DNA of 64,000 nt from Notamacropus eugenii (lineage: Eukaryota; Chordata; Mammalia; Diprotodontia; Macropodidae), in NCBI RefSeq assembly GCF_028372415.1, contig NC_092877.1, positions 250,805,510 to 250,869,509 of the forward strand. The letters run 5' to 3'. Position 1 is the stretch's first letter, and every line of letters starts with the position of its first letter. The translations under genes were made by a program, and so were the position numbers. Shown one piece after another: positions 5,145 through 37,165 of this stretch. The notes under the pieces were generated by a model, which did no database searches, was not told the origin of the DNA, and worked only from the letters and a program-made list of their open reading frames with translations.

Positions 5145-5764
5145 GTCGACTGCCAAGCCTAGAGGCCTGTATTGGGCTACCCGAGTCTTTCTTACCTGTC
5201 CAGGTCTTCGGCTGGCCACGCCGGATGCACGTATGAGAGAAAGGATGTTCCAGAGTCAAACAGGGGTTGAGCTTTATTACAGGGTTTCGGTTACAAGTGC
5301 AGGGGGTCTTCTTTCTTAGGACGAAGAGGGGGAGATTTCCTAAGAAGGCTAAGCTTAAGGGAATGGAAGTAGAAGTACAAGCGGGGGAGAGAGGGGGAGG
5401 GGAGAGAGGAAAGAAAAGAAGCGGAGCCCTACTTTTCTCTTTGGCTCCACACGTGCTAAGAGAGCTTTTAGGCTTCCTCAATCCTACTTAATCTTCAGCC
5501 ACACAGTTTGCATCTCAATACCGTGCTGTTAGGTAACTAGGTGTGCTCCAATCCGGGACGACCTCGAGGGCAGGGAGACTCCACCCATCAGGTATCTCCG
5601 GGGGAGAGGCGGAAATACCCGAGCTAGCCGAGCTAGCTCGGTCTGACCTTCTCGAACCCCCGCGGTTCATGGAGGGCCTCGTAAGACTCTAAGATTTAGA
5701 AGTCCCACTTTTACCTGCCCGAGACTGTCCACACGGATTTGAGCTTCCAGTCCCAACAGTCGAC
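5145..5764 (-). mobile_element. Solo LTR 1 (family A), with 6-bp target duplication
   Basis: The LTR occupies 5151-5758 (608 bp). It is bounded by TG and CA and flanked by the perfect duplication GTCGAC at 5145-5150 and 5759-5764. Read on the minus strand it starts TGTTGGGACTGGAAGC and ends AGGCTTGGCA, with a poly(A) signal (AATAAA in GTAATAAAGC, about 5274-5279), which fixes the orientation. It is GC-richer than its surroundings. No internal retroviral sequence remains, so it is a recombined solo LTR. A 6-bp duplication is typical of class II (beta-type) ERVs; that class is inferred from duplication length only. A near-identical copy lies at 12375-12986. Confidence 0.88.
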
Positions 5765-8957: not shown

Positions 8958-8961
8958 CTTG
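8958..8961. repeat. Left target-site duplication CTTG
   Basis: CTTG immediately outside the left LTR is matched by CTTG at 12149-12152 outside the right LTR. The chance of a random 4-bp match is about 1 in 256. Confidence 0.8.
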
Positions 8962-9402
8962 TGTGTGGGATGGCTCAGGTCCCTACATAAATCAATTACT
9001 CAGAGGCCTCTCAAAGTGATGACAGAAAAGTGATTTATTCGATTCTCGAGAAGCGGGGCTCACCTGTAGGAGTAGGAAAGCTGAAGACAAAGAACAGGAC
9101 AGTGATTTATATAGACCCTAAGGCAAGTCCCTCCTCCCCCCACTGACCATTATCCTCATTAGCTGAGAATATGGTCTTACATTCTAGACACGAAATCTAA
9201 CCAATCCCTTTTGAAATGAAGACATTGAGGAATTATGTAAGTTTTGTCCAATCATTGAGACCCTAATACACTACACAGTTTTATATCCTTATATGGAACT
9301 ATTCTATTCTAAAAATATTGTAACCTTGAGCCTTTAGGCCTTACCTCACCCCAGGGAGAAAAATTACAATCTGAGGAGTCTTCACTAAGTCTGTCCCACT
9401 CA
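8962..9402 (-). mobile_element. Left (3') LTR of the inverted provirus (family B)
   Basis: This 441-bp LTR reads on the minus strand from TGAGTGGGACAGAC (9402) to CCATCCCACACA (8962). A TATA box lies at 9113-9105 and a poly(A) signal AATAAA at 9039-9034. It lies downstream of env in the normal 3' LTR position. It differs from the right LTR at one base only (9059 versus 12051, a transition). Its promoter fires leftward into flanking DNA. Confidence 0.93.
9034..9113 (-). promoter_or_regulatory. LTR TATA box and poly(A) signal
   Basis: On the minus strand, TATATAAAT (9113-9105) is followed about 66 bp later by AATAAA (9039-9034). This is the core promoter and R-region poly(A) signal arrangement of a short gamma-type LTR. 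Mirror copies are at 11997-12005 and 12071-12076. Confidence 0.75.
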
Positions 9403-9420
9403 ATCCCTCCTCTTATTTTA
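9403..9420 (-). promoter_or_regulatory. Polypurine tract before the left LTR
   Basis: On the minus strand, TAAAATAAGAGGAGGGAT runs directly into the LTR start TGAGTGGG. This is the expected plus-strand primer site between env and the 3' LTR. The last five bases, GGGAT, are also present next to the right LTR (11703-11707), although the rest of the tract is not. Confidence 0.75.
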
Positions 9421-9447
9421 TCAGCCTGAAGACTTCTCACGCATGTT

Positions 9448-11272
9448 TCAACCAAAGTTCTGTAACATGATCTCACACTGTCTATTAATCTCCTCATCCC
9501 AATCAGGATCATTCCTGTCTCTTGTCTCCACAGGTACCCAACCTTCCTTCTTTAATATCATCAATCGAATGGCTCCTTCAGTCCTTTCTTCTACTCTAGC
9601 AAGTTTTAATAAAGAATTTCTAACTATTTTAGTAATTAGTGAAATCAAACAAGGTAAACAAATAGGAAGTAATACAATGCCACTAATTGCTATAAGGCGA
9701 AACCACAGTAACCTCTTCCACCAGCTCCCCTCAAACCAGGACCACCAGGATGTATTGAAAGGGGAGCCCCAAGTTTGTATGGGAACATGAGCAACTTTCC
9801 TGATATTCTTGGTGATCTCTTTCACTATCCTTCCATTATCATCAATTTTTAAGCAACATGTAGATAAATTGAGTTTTCCACAGACTCCTCCTTCTTCTGC
9901 AAGTAAATAATCTAAGATTAATCTATGTTGCAGTACTGCTTCCCTAGTTTGTGTGGCTTGATCTGCCAAGAAGTCCAAAGCCTTTGCTGTTTGATTGGTT
10001 ATAATTTCAACTACTGCTTGGAGTCTGATTAGTCTGTTTAATAGATATATAGGGGTTCTATAACCCCAGCTCCCATCTTGAGCCCAAGTTGCAGGCCCAT
10101 ACTCTCTGATTATCCTCTCAGGAGGCCAAGTATCGCCCCACCCATTTGCATTTCCAGTCTGAGTGAGGGAGGTGTTGATGTTCCTCTTTCTTTTGCTAGA
10201 TCATCATATAGAGGGACCCCTGGATGCTGTTTCCCTGATTCAGGCAAGAAAAAGAATTTAGGTCTCACCAATCCAATGTAACAAACACCTCTCCAGTTTA
10301 GCGGAAGGTGAGTATAGGCTGTCTGTCCACATATCCAATAATGTCCTCTCAAAGCAAGGATTTTCCTCTAGAAACAGTCTTACTCTCTAATTCACAGCCG
10401 GAAAGTACTTCACATCATCCGGGCCTAATGGTCCCCCTTTCATGATCTCTGACTTACCCTTCCATAGTTGTTGTTTCCTCTTCCATATACAATGTTGATA
10501 ATTCTCCCCAGTTCTATTGATTACACTCCAGAAAGTATCAAACATCATCCTATGTGTTCCATTCTCCCACTTCCATACCCATTCTTTATATTCTGTGTTA
10601 TTCTTAATACTGTTCATATATATACAACTCCACAAATAGTCATGGTCATGACCCCTTTCACATGGTTCTCTGGGATCAGAGGGGTTGTAAAACTTATACC
10701 CACAACTTTCATGATATTCTCCTTTTGTTCTCTCTTCACATGAAGAGGGTGGGAAAAATGAATGGGTACAGGGAATCACCCTACCATCTGAACAGGTAAT
10801 ACCGTTCTGATCCCATCTGTTTGCATACTGGGCACAATCAATATGAGCCAGGGTTTCTGGCCTTTGTGTGAATGTCCATTTATAATTACTTTCTCCCAGC
10901 CATGTCTCCTGCAATTTAGGTCCTGTTTGGTTTAAACAATGTTCACCTGGAACTGATTCGGACAAAGACCATTGGTGTATCTCCTGGCTTGTCCAGAATC
11001 TTGTTCCATCATGTACTACAGATTTATTACTTAAGATCCAGACTGGACTCAGTGGTACTGCTACCCATGGCCATTGGCTTAACCGCTGAGGTCCCCCCAC
11101 AAATCCAACAGTCAGATACCTCAAAGGTGTCCACAATGGTCTGAATTAGGGCCAGGAAACTATTTTCAAGAGGGGGATTGATAACTGGGGCCTGGTGTCC
11201 CAGCAGTGGGAACAGGATCATGCCTAGAAGGGACATTCCCAGGGTATTACATTTTGGTTGCATTGTTCCCAC
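9448..11272 (-). pseudogene. env: Retroviral envelope (env) pseudogene, class I ERV
   Basis: Env is the surface/transmembrane glycoprotein for receptor binding and membrane fusion. The likely start is the ATG at 11272, whose frame begins with a hydrophobic leader. The surface part has a CWICGG motif (near 11110), many N-glycosylation sites and a WICGQTAY / NWRGVCYIGL block (10340-10260). The transmembrane part (frame open from about 10127 to the stop at 9448) shows [15 protein letters not shown], a C-x7-CC motif ([10 protein letters not shown], about 9882-9853), a membrane anchor (about 9708-9630) and a charged tail. The overall pattern resembles the ERV3/HERV-R type. Breaks: a 1-nt frameshift in the G-run at about 11091-11098, an in-frame TAG at 10389-10387, a second frameshift near 10350, and a third in the GGGG run near 10127. 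No LTR promoter points toward it. Identification as env is firm; the subfamily is from memory. Confidence 0.9.
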
Positions 11273-11707
11273 GGTTTGTCAAGTCCACCCAGTCTTAATA
11301 GAAGAGTCCTGTTTAGATATCGTGGTAGTTGCCTCAGGACAATTGCTGAACAGAGAATCCTGTTAACAACAAACAATAGTAATCCTAGTATAGTTCCCCA
11401 AATAACAAAGCTTATAATGAATTTATACAGAGGCCTCATTGGCTATCCCTTTCCAAATTCTGTGTGTTCTCACACACGCTTCAAACGGAGCTTTTAAATA
11501 CTGACAAAGTGTGTCTCCAAGCATGAAGCTTGAGAGTTTAATAACTAATAGCAATAATTATAAATGAAAGTAAACAACTTTAAAATTTTTAAATGCAATA
11601 ACCTTCCATAACTTTGTCTACTGGCTTTCCAATCATGCTAAACATTTTCCGAATTGGGATGGGGGAATAGATAGTTCAAGGTTCAACTTACCCTTATTCC
11701 TCGGGAT
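11273..11707 (-). other. Env-upstream segment with splice-like signals and a 33-codon ORF
   Basis: These 435 bp between the env start and the inner edge of the right LTR hold no gag or pol that I recognise. On the minus strand there is a donor-like AGG|GTAAGT at about 11691, 17 bases inside the LTR. A good acceptor (TTTGTTGTTAACAG) ends at 11360, about 90 bp before the env ATG. A 33-codon ORF starts at 11524 (MLGDTLCQYLKAPFEAC at its N-terminus) and a 71-codon frame with a hydrophobic segment covers 11439-11224. The segment could be leader plus pol or gag remnant; undecided. Confidence 0.4.
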
Positions 11708-12148
11708 TGAGTGGGACAGACTTAGTGAAGACTCCTCAGATTGTAATTTTTCTCCCTGGGGTGAGGTAAGGCCTAAAGGCTCAAGGTTACAATATTTTTA
11801 GAATAGAATAGTTCCATATAAGGATATAAAACTGTGTAGTGTATTAGGGTCTCAATGATTGGACAAAACTTACATAATTCCTCAATGTCTTCATTTCAAA
11901 AGGGATTGGTTAGATTTCGTGTCTAGAATGTAAGACCATATTCTCAGCTAATGAGGATAATGGTCAGTGGGGGGAGGAGGGACTTGCCTTAGGGTCTATA
12001 TAAATCACTGTCCTGTTCTTTGTCTTCAGCTTTCCTACTCCTACAGGTGAACCCCGCTTCTCGAGAATCGAATAAATCACTTTTCTGTCATCACTTTGAG
12101 AGGCCTCTGAGTAATTGATTTATGTAGGGACCTGAGCCATCCCACACA
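11708..12148 (+). mobile_element. Right LTR of the inverted provirus (family B), inverted relative to env
   Basis: This is the exact reverse complement of 8962-9402 except at 12051. It reads on the plus strand from TGAGTGGG to CCATCCCACACA, with TATATAAAT at 11997-12005 and AATAAA at 12071-12076. In a normal provirus this position, upstream of env, would hold a minus-strand LTR followed by a primer binding site. Here the U3 edge faces inward and the U5 edge faces the flank. Sequence identity with the left LTR extends five bases inward (GGGAT, 11703-11707), then stops. Confidence 0.93.
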
Positions 12149-12152
12149 CTTG
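12149..12152. repeat. Right target-site duplication CTTG
   Basis: This matches 8958-8961. Removing the insertion joins an uninterrupted T-rich sequence. Confidence 0.8.
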
Positions 12153-12229: not shown

Positions 12230-13560
12230 TATATTTATTTTTTTTTTTTATTGAATTGAGGATATCTCTCAGAACGTATTATGTTATTTCTTTCTCTATC
12301 TTTCTCTTTCTCTTTCTGTTTTCCTGTAGGGCAAGATAAATTTCTATACCCCATTGTCTGAACGATTTATTTCCTGCCAAGCCTAGAGGCCTGTATTGGG
12401 CTACCCGAGTCTTTCTTACCTCACCTCCCGAGGTCTTCGGCTGGCCACGCCGGATGCACGTATGAGAGAAAGGACGTTCCAGAGTCAAACAGGGGTTGAG
12501 CTTTATTACAGGGTTTCGGTTACAAGTGCAGGGGGTCTTCTTTCTTAGGACGAAGAGGGGGAGATTTCCTAAGGAGGCTAAGCTTAAGGGATTGGAAGTA
12601 GAAGTACAAGCGGGGAGAGAGGGGGAGGGGAGAGAGAAAAGAAAAGAAGCGGAGCCCTACTTTTCTCTTTGGCTCCACACGTGCTAAGAGAGCTTTTAGG
12701 CTTCCTCAATCCTACTTAATCTTCAGCCACACAGTTTGCATCTCAATACCGTGCTGTTAGGTAACTAGGTGTGCTCCAATCCGGGACGACCTCGAGGGCA
12801 GGGAGACTCCACCCATCAGGTATCTCCGGGGGAGAGGCGGAAATACCCGAGCTAGCCGAGCTAGCTCGGTCTGACCTTCTCGAACCCCCGCTGTTCATGG
12901 AGGGCCTCGTAAGACTCTAAGATTTAGAAGTCCCACTTTTACCTGCCCGAGACTGTCCACACGGAATTGAGCTTCCAGTCCCAACAATTTCCCAGTTGCA
13001 TGCAAAAACAATTTTTAATATTCATTTTTAAATCTTTGAGTTCCACATTCTTTTCCTTCCTCCTTCCCCAGGCACCCTTATTGAGAAAGCAAGTGTATAG
13101 GTTATACTTCCATAACAGTCATATTGTGAAAGACTAACCACATTTCCCTCTCTCCTGCCCTGCTCTCCATTTATTCTATTATTTCCCTTGACCTGCCCCA
13201 CCATAATACTTTTTGCTTCTGATTACTCCTTCTCTCAATCTGCCATCCATTCTATTATAGTTCCTCTCCTATCCCGTTCCTTCCAGTCTTCCCATAGAGT
13301 AAAATAGATTTCTATACCAAGTTGAATGTGTCTTATTCCTTCCTTAAGCCAAATTCAAAGAGAGTACGGCTCACTTCTTACCCTCTCACCTCCCATCTCT
13401 TCCCCTCAATTATAAAAGCTCTTTCTTGACTCTTTTATGGGAGAAGCTTTACTGCATTGTAACTCTTCGTTTCTCTTTCTCCCATTACACTCCCTTCAAC
13501 ACTTAATTTCATTTTTTAAGCATTTCCAAATCATATTCAGCTTGCCCTGTGCCGTGTGTG
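12230..13560 (-). mobile_element. L1/HAL1-type 3' region (antisense), split by solo LTR 2
   Basis: Landmarks recur in the same order as in the copy at 13824-14740. They are GTAGGGCAAGATAAATTTCT (12327), then CCCAGTTGCATGCAAAAAC (12991), TTTGAGTTCCACATTC, CATAACAGTCATATTGTG, TAGATTTCTATACCAA and CTTTTATGGGAG. The unit stops at the TG/TA repeat at 13555. Solo LTR 2 interrupts it at 12375-12986. Confidence 0.6.
12369..12992 (-). mobile_element. Solo LTR 2 (family A), with 6-bp target duplication
   Basis: The LTR occupies 12375-12986 (612 bp) and is flanked by the perfect duplication ATTTCC (12369-12374 and 12987-12992). It is on the minus strand. Compared with solo LTR 1 it shows about seven base changes, a 1-bp indel and one short replaced segment near 12418-12434. 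The different duplications prove two separate insertions of one family. It interrupts an L1-type 3' region. Confidence 0.88.
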
Positions 13561-14751: not shown

Positions 14752-16473
14752 CCCTCCAACTACTCAAATACTGAGAAAAGTTTCAAGAGTTACAAATATT
14801 ATCTTTCCATGTAGGAATGCAAACAGTTCAAATTTAGTAAGTCCCTTGTGATTTCTCTTTCCTATTTATCTTTTCATGTTGCCCTTGATTCTTGTGTTTG
14901 AAAGTCAAATTTTTTATTCAGCTCTGGTCTTTCATCAATTATGCTTGAAAATCCTCTATTTCATTGAGTTAGAGTTTTTTTTTTTTTTCCCTTGAAGTGT
15001 TATACTCAGTTTTGCTAGGTGGGTGATTCTTGGTTTTAATCTTAGTTCCTTTGACTTCTGTAATATCATATTCTAAGCCCTTCAATCCCTTAACAGAGAA
15101 GCAGCAAAATCTTGTGTTATTCTGATTGCATTTTCACAATACTCATTTTTTTTTTCTGGCAACTTGTAGTATTTTCTCCTTGATCTGGGAACTCTGGAAT
15201 TTGACTACATTATACCTATGAGTTTTTCTTTTCAGATCTCTTTCAGAAGGTGATCAGTGGATTGATTCAATATTTATTTTGCCCTCTGATTTTAGAATAT
15301 GAGGGCAGTTTACCTTGATAATTTCATGGAAGATGATGTTTAGGCTCTTTTTTTGATCATGGCTAATTTTTAAAGAGTTATTGTCTTCAGTGAACTTTCG
15401 AACCTCCTTTTCCATTTGACTAATTCTGCTTTTTCAAACATTTTTCTCCTCATTGGCTTTTTGGACCTCTTTTGCCATTTGAGTTAGTCTATTTTTAAAG
15501 GTGTTATTTTCTTTAGCATTTTTTGGGTCTCCTTTAGCAAGCTGTTTTTCTTGCATCTCTCTCATTTCTCTTCCCAGTTTATCCTCCACCTCTCTAACTT
15601 GATTTTCAAAATCCTTTTTGAGCTCTTCCGTGGCCTGAGCCCATGGAATATTTATTCTGGATGTTTGGGATACAGAAGCCTTGACTTCTGTGTCTTTCCC
15701 TGATGGTAAGTATTGTTCTTCCTCATCAGAAAGGAAGGAAGGAAATACCTGTTTATCAAGAAAGTAACCTTCTATGGTCTTATTTTTTTTTTCCCTTTTC
15801 TGGGCATTTTCTTAGCAAGTGACTTGACTCCTGAGTGTTCTCTCCACCCCCACCTGGCCCCCAGATTCTCCCAGCCAGTGCTTGGGGTCTGAGATTCAAA
15901 TGCTGCTTTCCAGCCTCAGGGCTTTGGGCAGGGGCGGGGATGCTATTCAGTGTGAGATTAAGTTCAGATGCTCAGGTGGGAGCAGGTCCTCCACATGGGG
16001 CTCATTTCCCTCAGGGGGTTTATGTGGAGATCTTCAACAATGGATCCAAGCTCCTCCCTGCTTTGGGAGCCCCTGTCCTCCACTGCCCCCCCCTGCTGCC
16101 TCCCTAGGGGGCCTCAGTTATGGGGACACCCCACTCCCCTCTCGACCAGCCAGAGAGACACTCTCACCAACCTTTGGCACCTGTGGGTGAAGTGACCTGC
16201 GTGGCTGCTGGAGATTCCATCCCTGAAGCATCTCCTCTTGGCACTGGGCGGCCAGGGCAGGGCTGGGCTCTGCTCTGGGTCTGGGGTGCGACAGACGTTT
16301 TGCGTCAGGTTTTCATGTCTCTCTGGAACAGAAATCTCCTCCACTCTGTTGTTCTGTGGCTTCTGCTGCTCCCAAATTTGTTGGGAGTTCTTCTTTACAG
16401 GTAATTTATGGGTTGTGGGTTTCGAGCTAGCATGTGTGTGTCTTTCTACTCTGCCCTCTTGGCTCCTCCTCCT
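13824..16473 (-). mobile_element. HAL1-like unit, near full length (leader, ORF1, 3' region)
   Basis: The 5' leader runs from about 16473 (marsupial L1 start, GAGCCAAGAGGGCAGAGTAG on the minus strand) to 15808 and is GC-rich. ORF1 starts at the ATG at 15807-15805 (MPRKGK) but an A-run shifts the frame after eight codons. The coiled-coil and nucleic-acid-binding region continues to about 14960 with an internal deletion near 15360. The 3' region contains a (TG)n array (14708-14748) and pyrimidine-rich blocks, and ends in an A-rich tail at 13824. ORF1 of L1 is an RNA-binding chaperone; here it is dead. Confidence 0.65.
14680..14748. repeat. (TG)n microsatellite inside HAL1-like 3' region
   Basis: TATATATA followed by about 20 TG units. 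The open frames over it are repeat artefacts. Confidence 0.9.
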
Positions 16474-17468
16474 TTAGCAAGCTGTTGGCACACTTTTCAT
16501 GATTTTCTTGCATCACCCTCCTTTCTCTTCCCAACGTTTCCTTCACCTGTCTTATTTGGTTTTAAAAATCCTTTTTGAGCTCTTCCATGGCCTGAAAACA
16601 TTGCATATTTATTTTGGATGTATTGGATGCATAAGCCTTAATTTTAGCTCATCCTCTGATGATATGCTTTCATCTGAAAGGATGGAAGAAAATACCTGTT
16701 CACTAAGACATTAACCTTTTATATCCTTTGTTTTTTTCCCCCTTATAGTGGCATTTTTCCCAGGTGACTATTTGACTTCTGAATTCTTTGTCAAGAGGAT
16801 GATATGTTCTAGGGACCTGTAAGTTCTCAGTTCCTCCAAAATGACACAGTCAAGGATTGCTCTTTTCTGGGAGTAACCACAAGCTTTTCTGCCCAGGATC
16901 TGTGAGTAGAATTCCCTCTCCAGAACCTTCACCATCTCTACTACACCAGGGCTCTTCCTCCCTCCAAAGCTGCCACTCAGGGCTTAGATTCAGAGCAGGC
17001 ATTCAATTCCCCCAGGGTCTTTGGGAAGAAGGCTCCAAAAATCAACTCTGCCAATGCCTGGGGTCAGCTGAGGCCAGGGCAAGAGGAGAACCTTGCTCCC
17101 TTCTCACTCAGGTGAAAGATCTTTCTCATTGACTGTTGTCACTGTCTTTGGCATTTTGTGGCTGAGGAATCTGGGAACCATAGCTACTGCCTGTGATTCC
17201 ACACCCTGAAGGCTGCTCTGGACCTGTCTATGCCTCTCTATGACACTAAGGTTAGGCTGACCTCCACTCTGAGCCTAATGTGATAGACCTTTCCTATCAG
17301 CTTTCCAAGCTGTCTTGGGGTGGAAATATCTTTCACTCCATTGTTTTGTGGCTTTTGCTGCTCTAGAATCTGTTTAGAATCATTTTTACAAGTATTTTAT
17401 GAACTGTGGGGGGAGAACTTCTACAGGTCCATCCTTCTACTCAGCCATCTTGACTCTGCCCCCAAGGT
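16474..17468 (-). mobile_element. 5' part of a second HAL1/L1-like unit
   Basis: The L1 start signature (GTCAAGATGGCTGAGTAGAA on the minus strand, about 17453-17434) is followed by about 0.7 kb of leader and an ORF1 start at 16754-16752, where the fourth codon is a stop. The unit ends inside ORF1 at about 16474, where it abuts the 5' end of the neighbouring unit. The short overlap CTCC at the junction is a possible microhomology. Confidence 0.65.
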
Positions 17469-36700: not shown

Positions 36701-37165
36701 GAAAAAAAAAGTCTTATTTTTTCCCTTTTTTGGGCATTTTCCCAGACTATAGAAGGTTACTTTCTTGGTGAAAAGGTATTTTCCTCCATCCATTCTGAGG
36801 AGGAAGAACAAAGCATACCATTAGAGGGAGACATCAAAGTCAAAGTTTCTTGATCCAAAACCTCCAAAATAAATTTGCAATGATCTCAGCCCATGGAACA
36901 CCTCAAAAGAGATTTTTAAAATCAAGTAAGAGAGGTGGAGGAAAAATTGGGAAGAGAAATAAGAGCAATGCAAGAAAATCATGAAAAGCAAGTCAGCAGT
37001 TTGTTAAAGGAGACTCAAAAAAATGCTGAAGAAAATAACACTTTTAAAAACAGACTAACCCAAATGCTAAAGAAGTCCAAAAAGTCAACGAGGAGAAAAA
37101 TGCTTTAAAAGGCAGAATTATCAAAAGGCTCACTGAAGAAAATAGTTCTTTAAAAGAACTTTGGA
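36701..37165 (+). mobile_element. L1/HAL1 ORF1 fragment with a 5' micro-inversion, inside the RTE
   Basis: From about 36745 the plus strand reads L1 ORF1: TIEGYFLGEKVFSS, then REVEEKLGREIRAMQE, then ENNTFKNRLTQM, parallel to the minus-strand copy at 15807-15440. The first 34 bp (36711-36744) are the reverse complement of the ORF1 start region, including the initiation codon. RTE sequence flanks the fragment on both sides. No poly(A) tail follows. Confidence 0.7.

Follow-up and report, generated by a model that had tools for sequence, protein, structure and literature searches.

In linear retroviral DNA, the terminal U5 is contributed by the 3' LTR only. Viral sequences in opposite orientation are known from retroviral autointegration, which yields inverted circles that are unintegrated and in which the trimmed ends are joined to internal sites. 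Inverted terminal repeats are characteristic also of foldback DNA transposons and of DIRS-like retroelements. In lentiviruses, a second polypurine tract (PPT) inside the genome, the central PPT, starts plus-strand DNA, as is described in the available part of PMC3227589. HIV-1 proviruses can show inversions, asymmetric LTRs or aberrant integrations, and the available parts of two further reports (PMC9278108, PMC5041404) describe genome inversions, LTR deletions and one-end host rearrangements. An inverted structure with two U5 ends is not described in the available part of PMC12789967, and a literature search, which covered few subscription journals, revealed neither a description of a two-U5 provirus nor a precedent for it.

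The window, i.e., the whole stretch of 64,000 nt that was analysed (contig C23:250805510-250869509), contains an insert of 3187 bp at positions 8962-12148 with a 441-bp LTR at either end, the two LTRs being inverted relative to each other. The insert consists of that portion of a normal provirus which begins with the base directly after an internal PPT and ends with U5; at this first base a second LTR is attached in the opposite orientation. The features are listed in Table 1.

Table 1. Features of the insert and its borders (positions in the window)
Feature	Position	Strand	Basis
Left target-site duplication CTTG	8958..8961		exact 4-bp repeats in 10/12 normal relatives
3' LTR, placed relative to env as in normal proviruses, U5 outward	8962..9402	-	comparison with relatives
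AT (9403-9404) and 3' PPT AATAAGAGGAGGG (9405-9417)	9403..9417	-	tract precedes LTR in relatives
env remnant, ERV3-like, with frame changes and stops	9448..11442	-	Pfam, protein matches
Pre-env region without long open frame	11443..11702	-	base 11702 corresponds to the one that follows the internal PPT of relatives
Inner junction, head to head, between internal-PPT edge and 3'-PPT end	11702..11703		alignment of relatives
GGG (end of a 3' PPT, 3 nt) and AT (untrimmed U3 end)	11703..11707	+	PPT/LTR border in relatives
Inverted extra LTR, U5 end outermost	11708..12148	+	LTR comparison, normal proviruses
Right target-site duplication CTTG	12149..12152		matches left CTTG

No Rfam family and no tRNA was found when the window was scanned for them. 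Another LTR-like repeat is present in the window at positions 5150-5758 and 12374-12986, and its two copies are 97.7% identical over 614 aligned bases. Both copies start with TG, end with CA and have their own 6-bp flanking repeats (GTCGAC and ATTTCC, respectively); they resemble solo LTRs of another family that inserted independently. In addition, several repeats of about 265-387 bp, which are 74-79% alike, are found at 15412-16782 and 36744-37128.

The two LTRs of the insert have TG...CA termini and differ at one of 441 sites, LTR position 344. The left arm has a G at this position, as do 37 of 38 other copies, and the rarer base is that of the right arm. The inverted repeat extends 5 nt inward beyond the LTRs (ATCCC/GGGAT). 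On both sides of the insert the U5 end (CACA) is outermost and abuts the CTTG flank. The same LTR end precedes the primer binding site at the 5' LTR in all 12 normal proviruses that were read at both ends, and, thus, both outer ends of the insert are U5. In these 12 proviruses the 5' LTR is followed by a tRNA-Pro-like primer binding site. The insert has no primer binding site inside a 5' LTR, as each U5 end abuts the target repeat, and it lacks the direct LTRs, with U3 outermost on one side and U5 on the other, that characterize a normal provirus. The initial annotation of the locus had described two inverted 441-bp LTRs with one mismatch, an enclosed minus-strand env, CTTG as the boundary of the whole, and U5 at both outer termini, and this description was confirmed.

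The env remnant was analysed in pieces. One of the five pieces scanned, the TM piece, had a Pfam match, to TLV_coat. At the protein level it matched an ERV3-like env of the tammar wallaby (90% over 88% of the piece) and one of the wombat (74%), which are its closest proteins, and among solved structures syncytin-2 was the top match, followed by other retroviral and filoviral fusion subunits. The SU piece had four protein matches, including the tammar wallaby ERV3-like env; no Pfam relative and nothing convincing among solved structures was found for it. The family LTR with TG...CA, the 4-bp target repeat and the gamma-type env with the TLV_coat match place the insert with the ERV1 / gammaretrovirus-like elements. 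Alignment with 21 relatives revealed 14 gaps in the insert, of which 13 recur in 8 to 20 relatives and one is private, as well as one small private insertion. As 13 of the 14 gaps are common to relatives, most length differences of the insert seem to predate its insertion.

The genome (3.45 Gb) was searched for relatives with a 25-nt U3 probe, and 550 places with at most two mismatches were found, the two LTRs of the insert included. Among 100 of the 550 places that were listed, there are 16 close pairs of neighbours, with spacings of 6.2-7.9 kb, and all of them are direct; these are the normally organised relatives that the initial annotation had proposed to look for. Thirty-eight relatives were fetched, namely the other LTR places among the at least 40 matches listed. 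Their LTRs are 93.6-98.6% identical to that of the insert (38 copies), and the internal parts 95.0-97.4% (21 aligned copies). In 37 of the 38 the env-side sequence passes via the 3' PPT directly into the LTR. One copy (L046, the same as L007) has no internal match and GGAT on both flanks, and, thus, it looks like a solo LTR. The LTR subtype of the insert occurs at 28 exact places in the genome, and a scan of viral contigs with an LTR 22-mer revealed no match.

Twelve normal proviruses were read with both LTRs, and eight of them are among the 38 fetched relatives. The target repeats are exact 4-bp repeats in ten cases, a 5-bp repeat in one case, and CTTC/CTTG in one case. The numbers of substitutions between the two LTRs are 2, 3, 5, 15, 10, 0, 4, 2, 9, 6, 5 and 10. 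With one difference, compared to 0-15 in the normal pairs, the inverted pair is on the young side of the range.

Some members of the family have peculiarities of their own. Two normal relatives, L012 (3747-3801) and L033 (3743-3967), carry an inverted piece of the same LTR that is 82-85% alike beside the end of the 3' LTR; in both cases the provirus seems to have landed in, or next to, an older LTR of a related kind. Internal breakpoints are shared by L028 and L043 (internal match from 1045) and by L030 and L034 (from 258), which suggests deletion subfamilies that spread. On contig C25, direct LTR pairs in the same orientation are found at 72928160-72935590 and 73119628-73127058, each with a spacing of 7430 bp and 191 kb apart from one another; perhaps a segment with one provirus was duplicated.

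The relatives were also used to define the inner junction. A second copy of the PPT is present in the pre-env region of 31 of the 38 fetched relatives, and in 27 of these 31 it is exact over 13 nt. It was not seen in the other seven because their match to the interior stops short of that place. When the internal part of one relative was dinucleotide-shuffled 300 times, none of the shuffles reached 13/13 and three reached 12. In 27 relatives the match to the insert interior sets in at the sixth base, and in one (L022) at the seventh. Immediately upstream of this border the relatives have the internal PPT (AATAAGAGGAGGG followed by GAGGAATATGGG), which is exact in 24 of the 28 aligned relatives and has one change in four. 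The border of the 3' PPT in the relatives is AATAAGAGGAGGG followed by AT-TGAG, and the cut that defines U3, GAGGAGGG^AT-TG, has the same position relative to the tract as the start of the insert interior, indicating that the interior begins at the exact base where plus-strand DNA from the internal PPT would begin.

Thus one side of the junction lies exactly at the downstream edge of the internal PPT, and the other side lies 3 nt inside the 3' PPT. Directly before GAGGAATA, 28 of 28 aligned relatives have a G, and the insert has a C. As this base is never a C in the relatives, GGGAT derives from the PPT/U3 side alone, and the alignment of the 28 relatives revealed no bases shared between the joined sides. 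Microhomology or a template switch via GGGAT was considered and rejected on the same grounds. The LTR-side end retains three PPT bases (GGG) and, thus, differs from a normal plus-strand start, which weighs against the origin favoured here; the kept GGG is possibly a leftover of the RNA primer or the result of an alternative cut. Read from this one junction, the arrangement suggests that the internal PPT can act as a plus-strand start in a gammaretrovirus-like ERV.

The insert is probably an aberrant provirus, which would have arisen when two PPT-ended reverse transcripts were joined head to head and then integrated via two U5 ends. Two terminal U5 ends require either a pair of reverse transcripts or one that was copied back. 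The parts, borders and target repeat are observed; we infer that the internal PPT primed, that ends were joined, and that two molecules took part. The two reverse transcripts would stem from two co-packaged RNAs or from two particles, and minus-strand synthesis on the two templates would leave a free flush end at a PPT in each case. The PPT ends would then be joined without homology, either by host end joining or by a polymerase jump between template ends, and the resulting linear DNA would carry a tRNA-primed U5 at both ends. Integrase would trim both U5 ends and insert them in one concerted step. The tips of the LTR are similar (U3 TGAGTGGGACAG, U5 reversed TGTGTGGGATGG), which makes two U5 ends a plausible integrase substrate, and the matching 4-bp CTTG repeats, which have the usual size of the family, support insertion by integrase.

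An origin in the chromosome would require that two separate proviruses of the family had inserted head to head and that a later deletion fused the interior of the first with the PPT of the second, possibly guided by a hairpin between the inverted PPT copies. The 550 LTR places make close insertions possible, and breaks would be more likely at or close to the edges of inverted PPT copies. However, CTTG would have to match by chance, and two 4-mers agree by chance in about 0.35-0.55% of cases at the given base composition. In addition, the deletion must end at or near both PPT edges, and both LTRs would have to belong to the 28-place exact subtype and differ at only one of 441 sites. Furthermore, no neighbouring inverted pair less than 40 kb apart was found among 100 of the 550 LTR places listed, the one found being 44.9 kb apart. 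A deletion between two proviruses is, thus, unlikely.

We give the same low weight to a single minus strand that folds back, with its 3' end looping to its own 5' part and copying the LTR. Such a fold-back would yield the same order of parts, but there is no complementarity at the junction that could prime the loop. Moreover, the hairpin would have one double-stranded U5 end, whereas the CTTG pair implies a two-ended insertion. The initial annotation had proposed a linear DNA with inverted LTRs that was made during reverse transcription and inserted by integrase. The origin before integration and the use of integrase via two U5 ends are retained in the reading favoured here. Fold-back self-priming has no support, as the joined sides share no bases.

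The structure was read in one assembly and from assembled sequence, and an assembly artefact could therefore be suspected. This is very unlikely, as the junction lies on a biologically special base, which an error would hardly choose, there is one difference between the arms, and the CTTG repeats match. Also, the flanks differ from each other and match this locus alone; the joined flanks likewise match no other locus, and the assembly thus yielded no paralogous empty site.

Autointegration, in which integrase attacks the virus's own DNA, is even less probable. It was reportedly found by Shoemaker in 1980 to yield inverted viral segments, and it is a known source of them. Integrase joins the trimmed TG end, and in the insert GGGAT is retained before TG, i.e., the U3 end is untrimmed, which contradicts joining of a trimmed end. 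Furthermore, autointegration should not leave two free U5 ends.

The last question was whether the structure recurs. The 29-nt junction, with up to three mismatches, was found at one place in the genome, which is this locus, and also the half-junction searches, in which each half was combined with a wrong neighbour, revealed no second case in the genome. The half-junction H-GARGAATAWGGGTAAG was found at 13 places, compared to 16 for the reversed-pattern control, and three of them are in the LTR family, namely this locus, L050 and L053, of which the latter two carry a point change in the internal tract; the remaining places are unrelated. The other half-junction, B-GGGATTGAG..., was found at two places, compared to none for the control, and these are this locus and L062, an ordinary 5' LTR. 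An LTR-LTR head-to-head pattern with a gap of at most 30 nt was found at three palindromic places (control: four per strand), none of which had a significant LTR match. Among the 28 exact same-subtype LTRs, the insert is the sole close inverted pair; the two direct pairs on C25 are in the same list. Both LTR promoters of the insert face outward, and, thus, it should not make genomic RNA of itself and would be a dead end. A reproducing foldback-type retroelement family with the same structure, which the initial annotation had envisaged as an undescribed element in case the inner junction recurred at other loci, has nothing in its favour besides the single copy and is extremely improbable in view of the unique junction, the sole close inverted pair among the 28 same-subtype LTRs and the outward promoters. 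Inverted pairs with other inner junctions may occur among LTR places beyond the 100 that were listed. The insert is probably a single dead-end accident.

If the proposed origin by joining of two reverse transcripts is true, one germ-line locus records a plus-strand start site, the joining of PPT ends, and the sufficiency of two U5 ends for a clean insertion. Such steps have been studied mostly in cell culture or in vitro. It is fairly likely that the locus is a fossil of an internal plus-strand start before env, of head-to-head joining of PPT ends, and of germ-line integration via two U5 ends. A search rule follows from the structure: genomes can be scanned for inverted LTRs that occur in pairs, point outward with U5 and have target repeats that match, and the inner junctions would map the ends of reverse transcription.

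The insert shares the LTR, the 3' PPT, the internal part and the usual 4-bp target repeats with the normal proviruses of the same LTR family. In contrast to the insert, these have LTRs in direct orientation with a spacing of 6.2-7.9 kb, end in U3 on one side and in U5 on the other, and carry a 5' primer binding site. Inverted terminal repeats are common to the insert, the foldback DNA transposons and the DIRS-like retroelements, but the termini of the insert are retroviral LTR ends. The LTRs are opposite also in autointegration circles; in the insert, however, U3 is untrimmed and the outer ends are integrated. Like the insert, the aberrant HIV-1 proviruses are defective or rearranged, but a precise two-U5 insertion is not described in the available parts of the respective reports (PMC9278108, PMC5041404). 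The lentiviral central PPT differs in that the element analysed here is gamma-like, its tract lies just upstream of env, and use of the tract as a start is deduced from one junction; the likeness is that an internal copy of the 3' PPT is present, in this family in 31 of the 38 fetched relatives.
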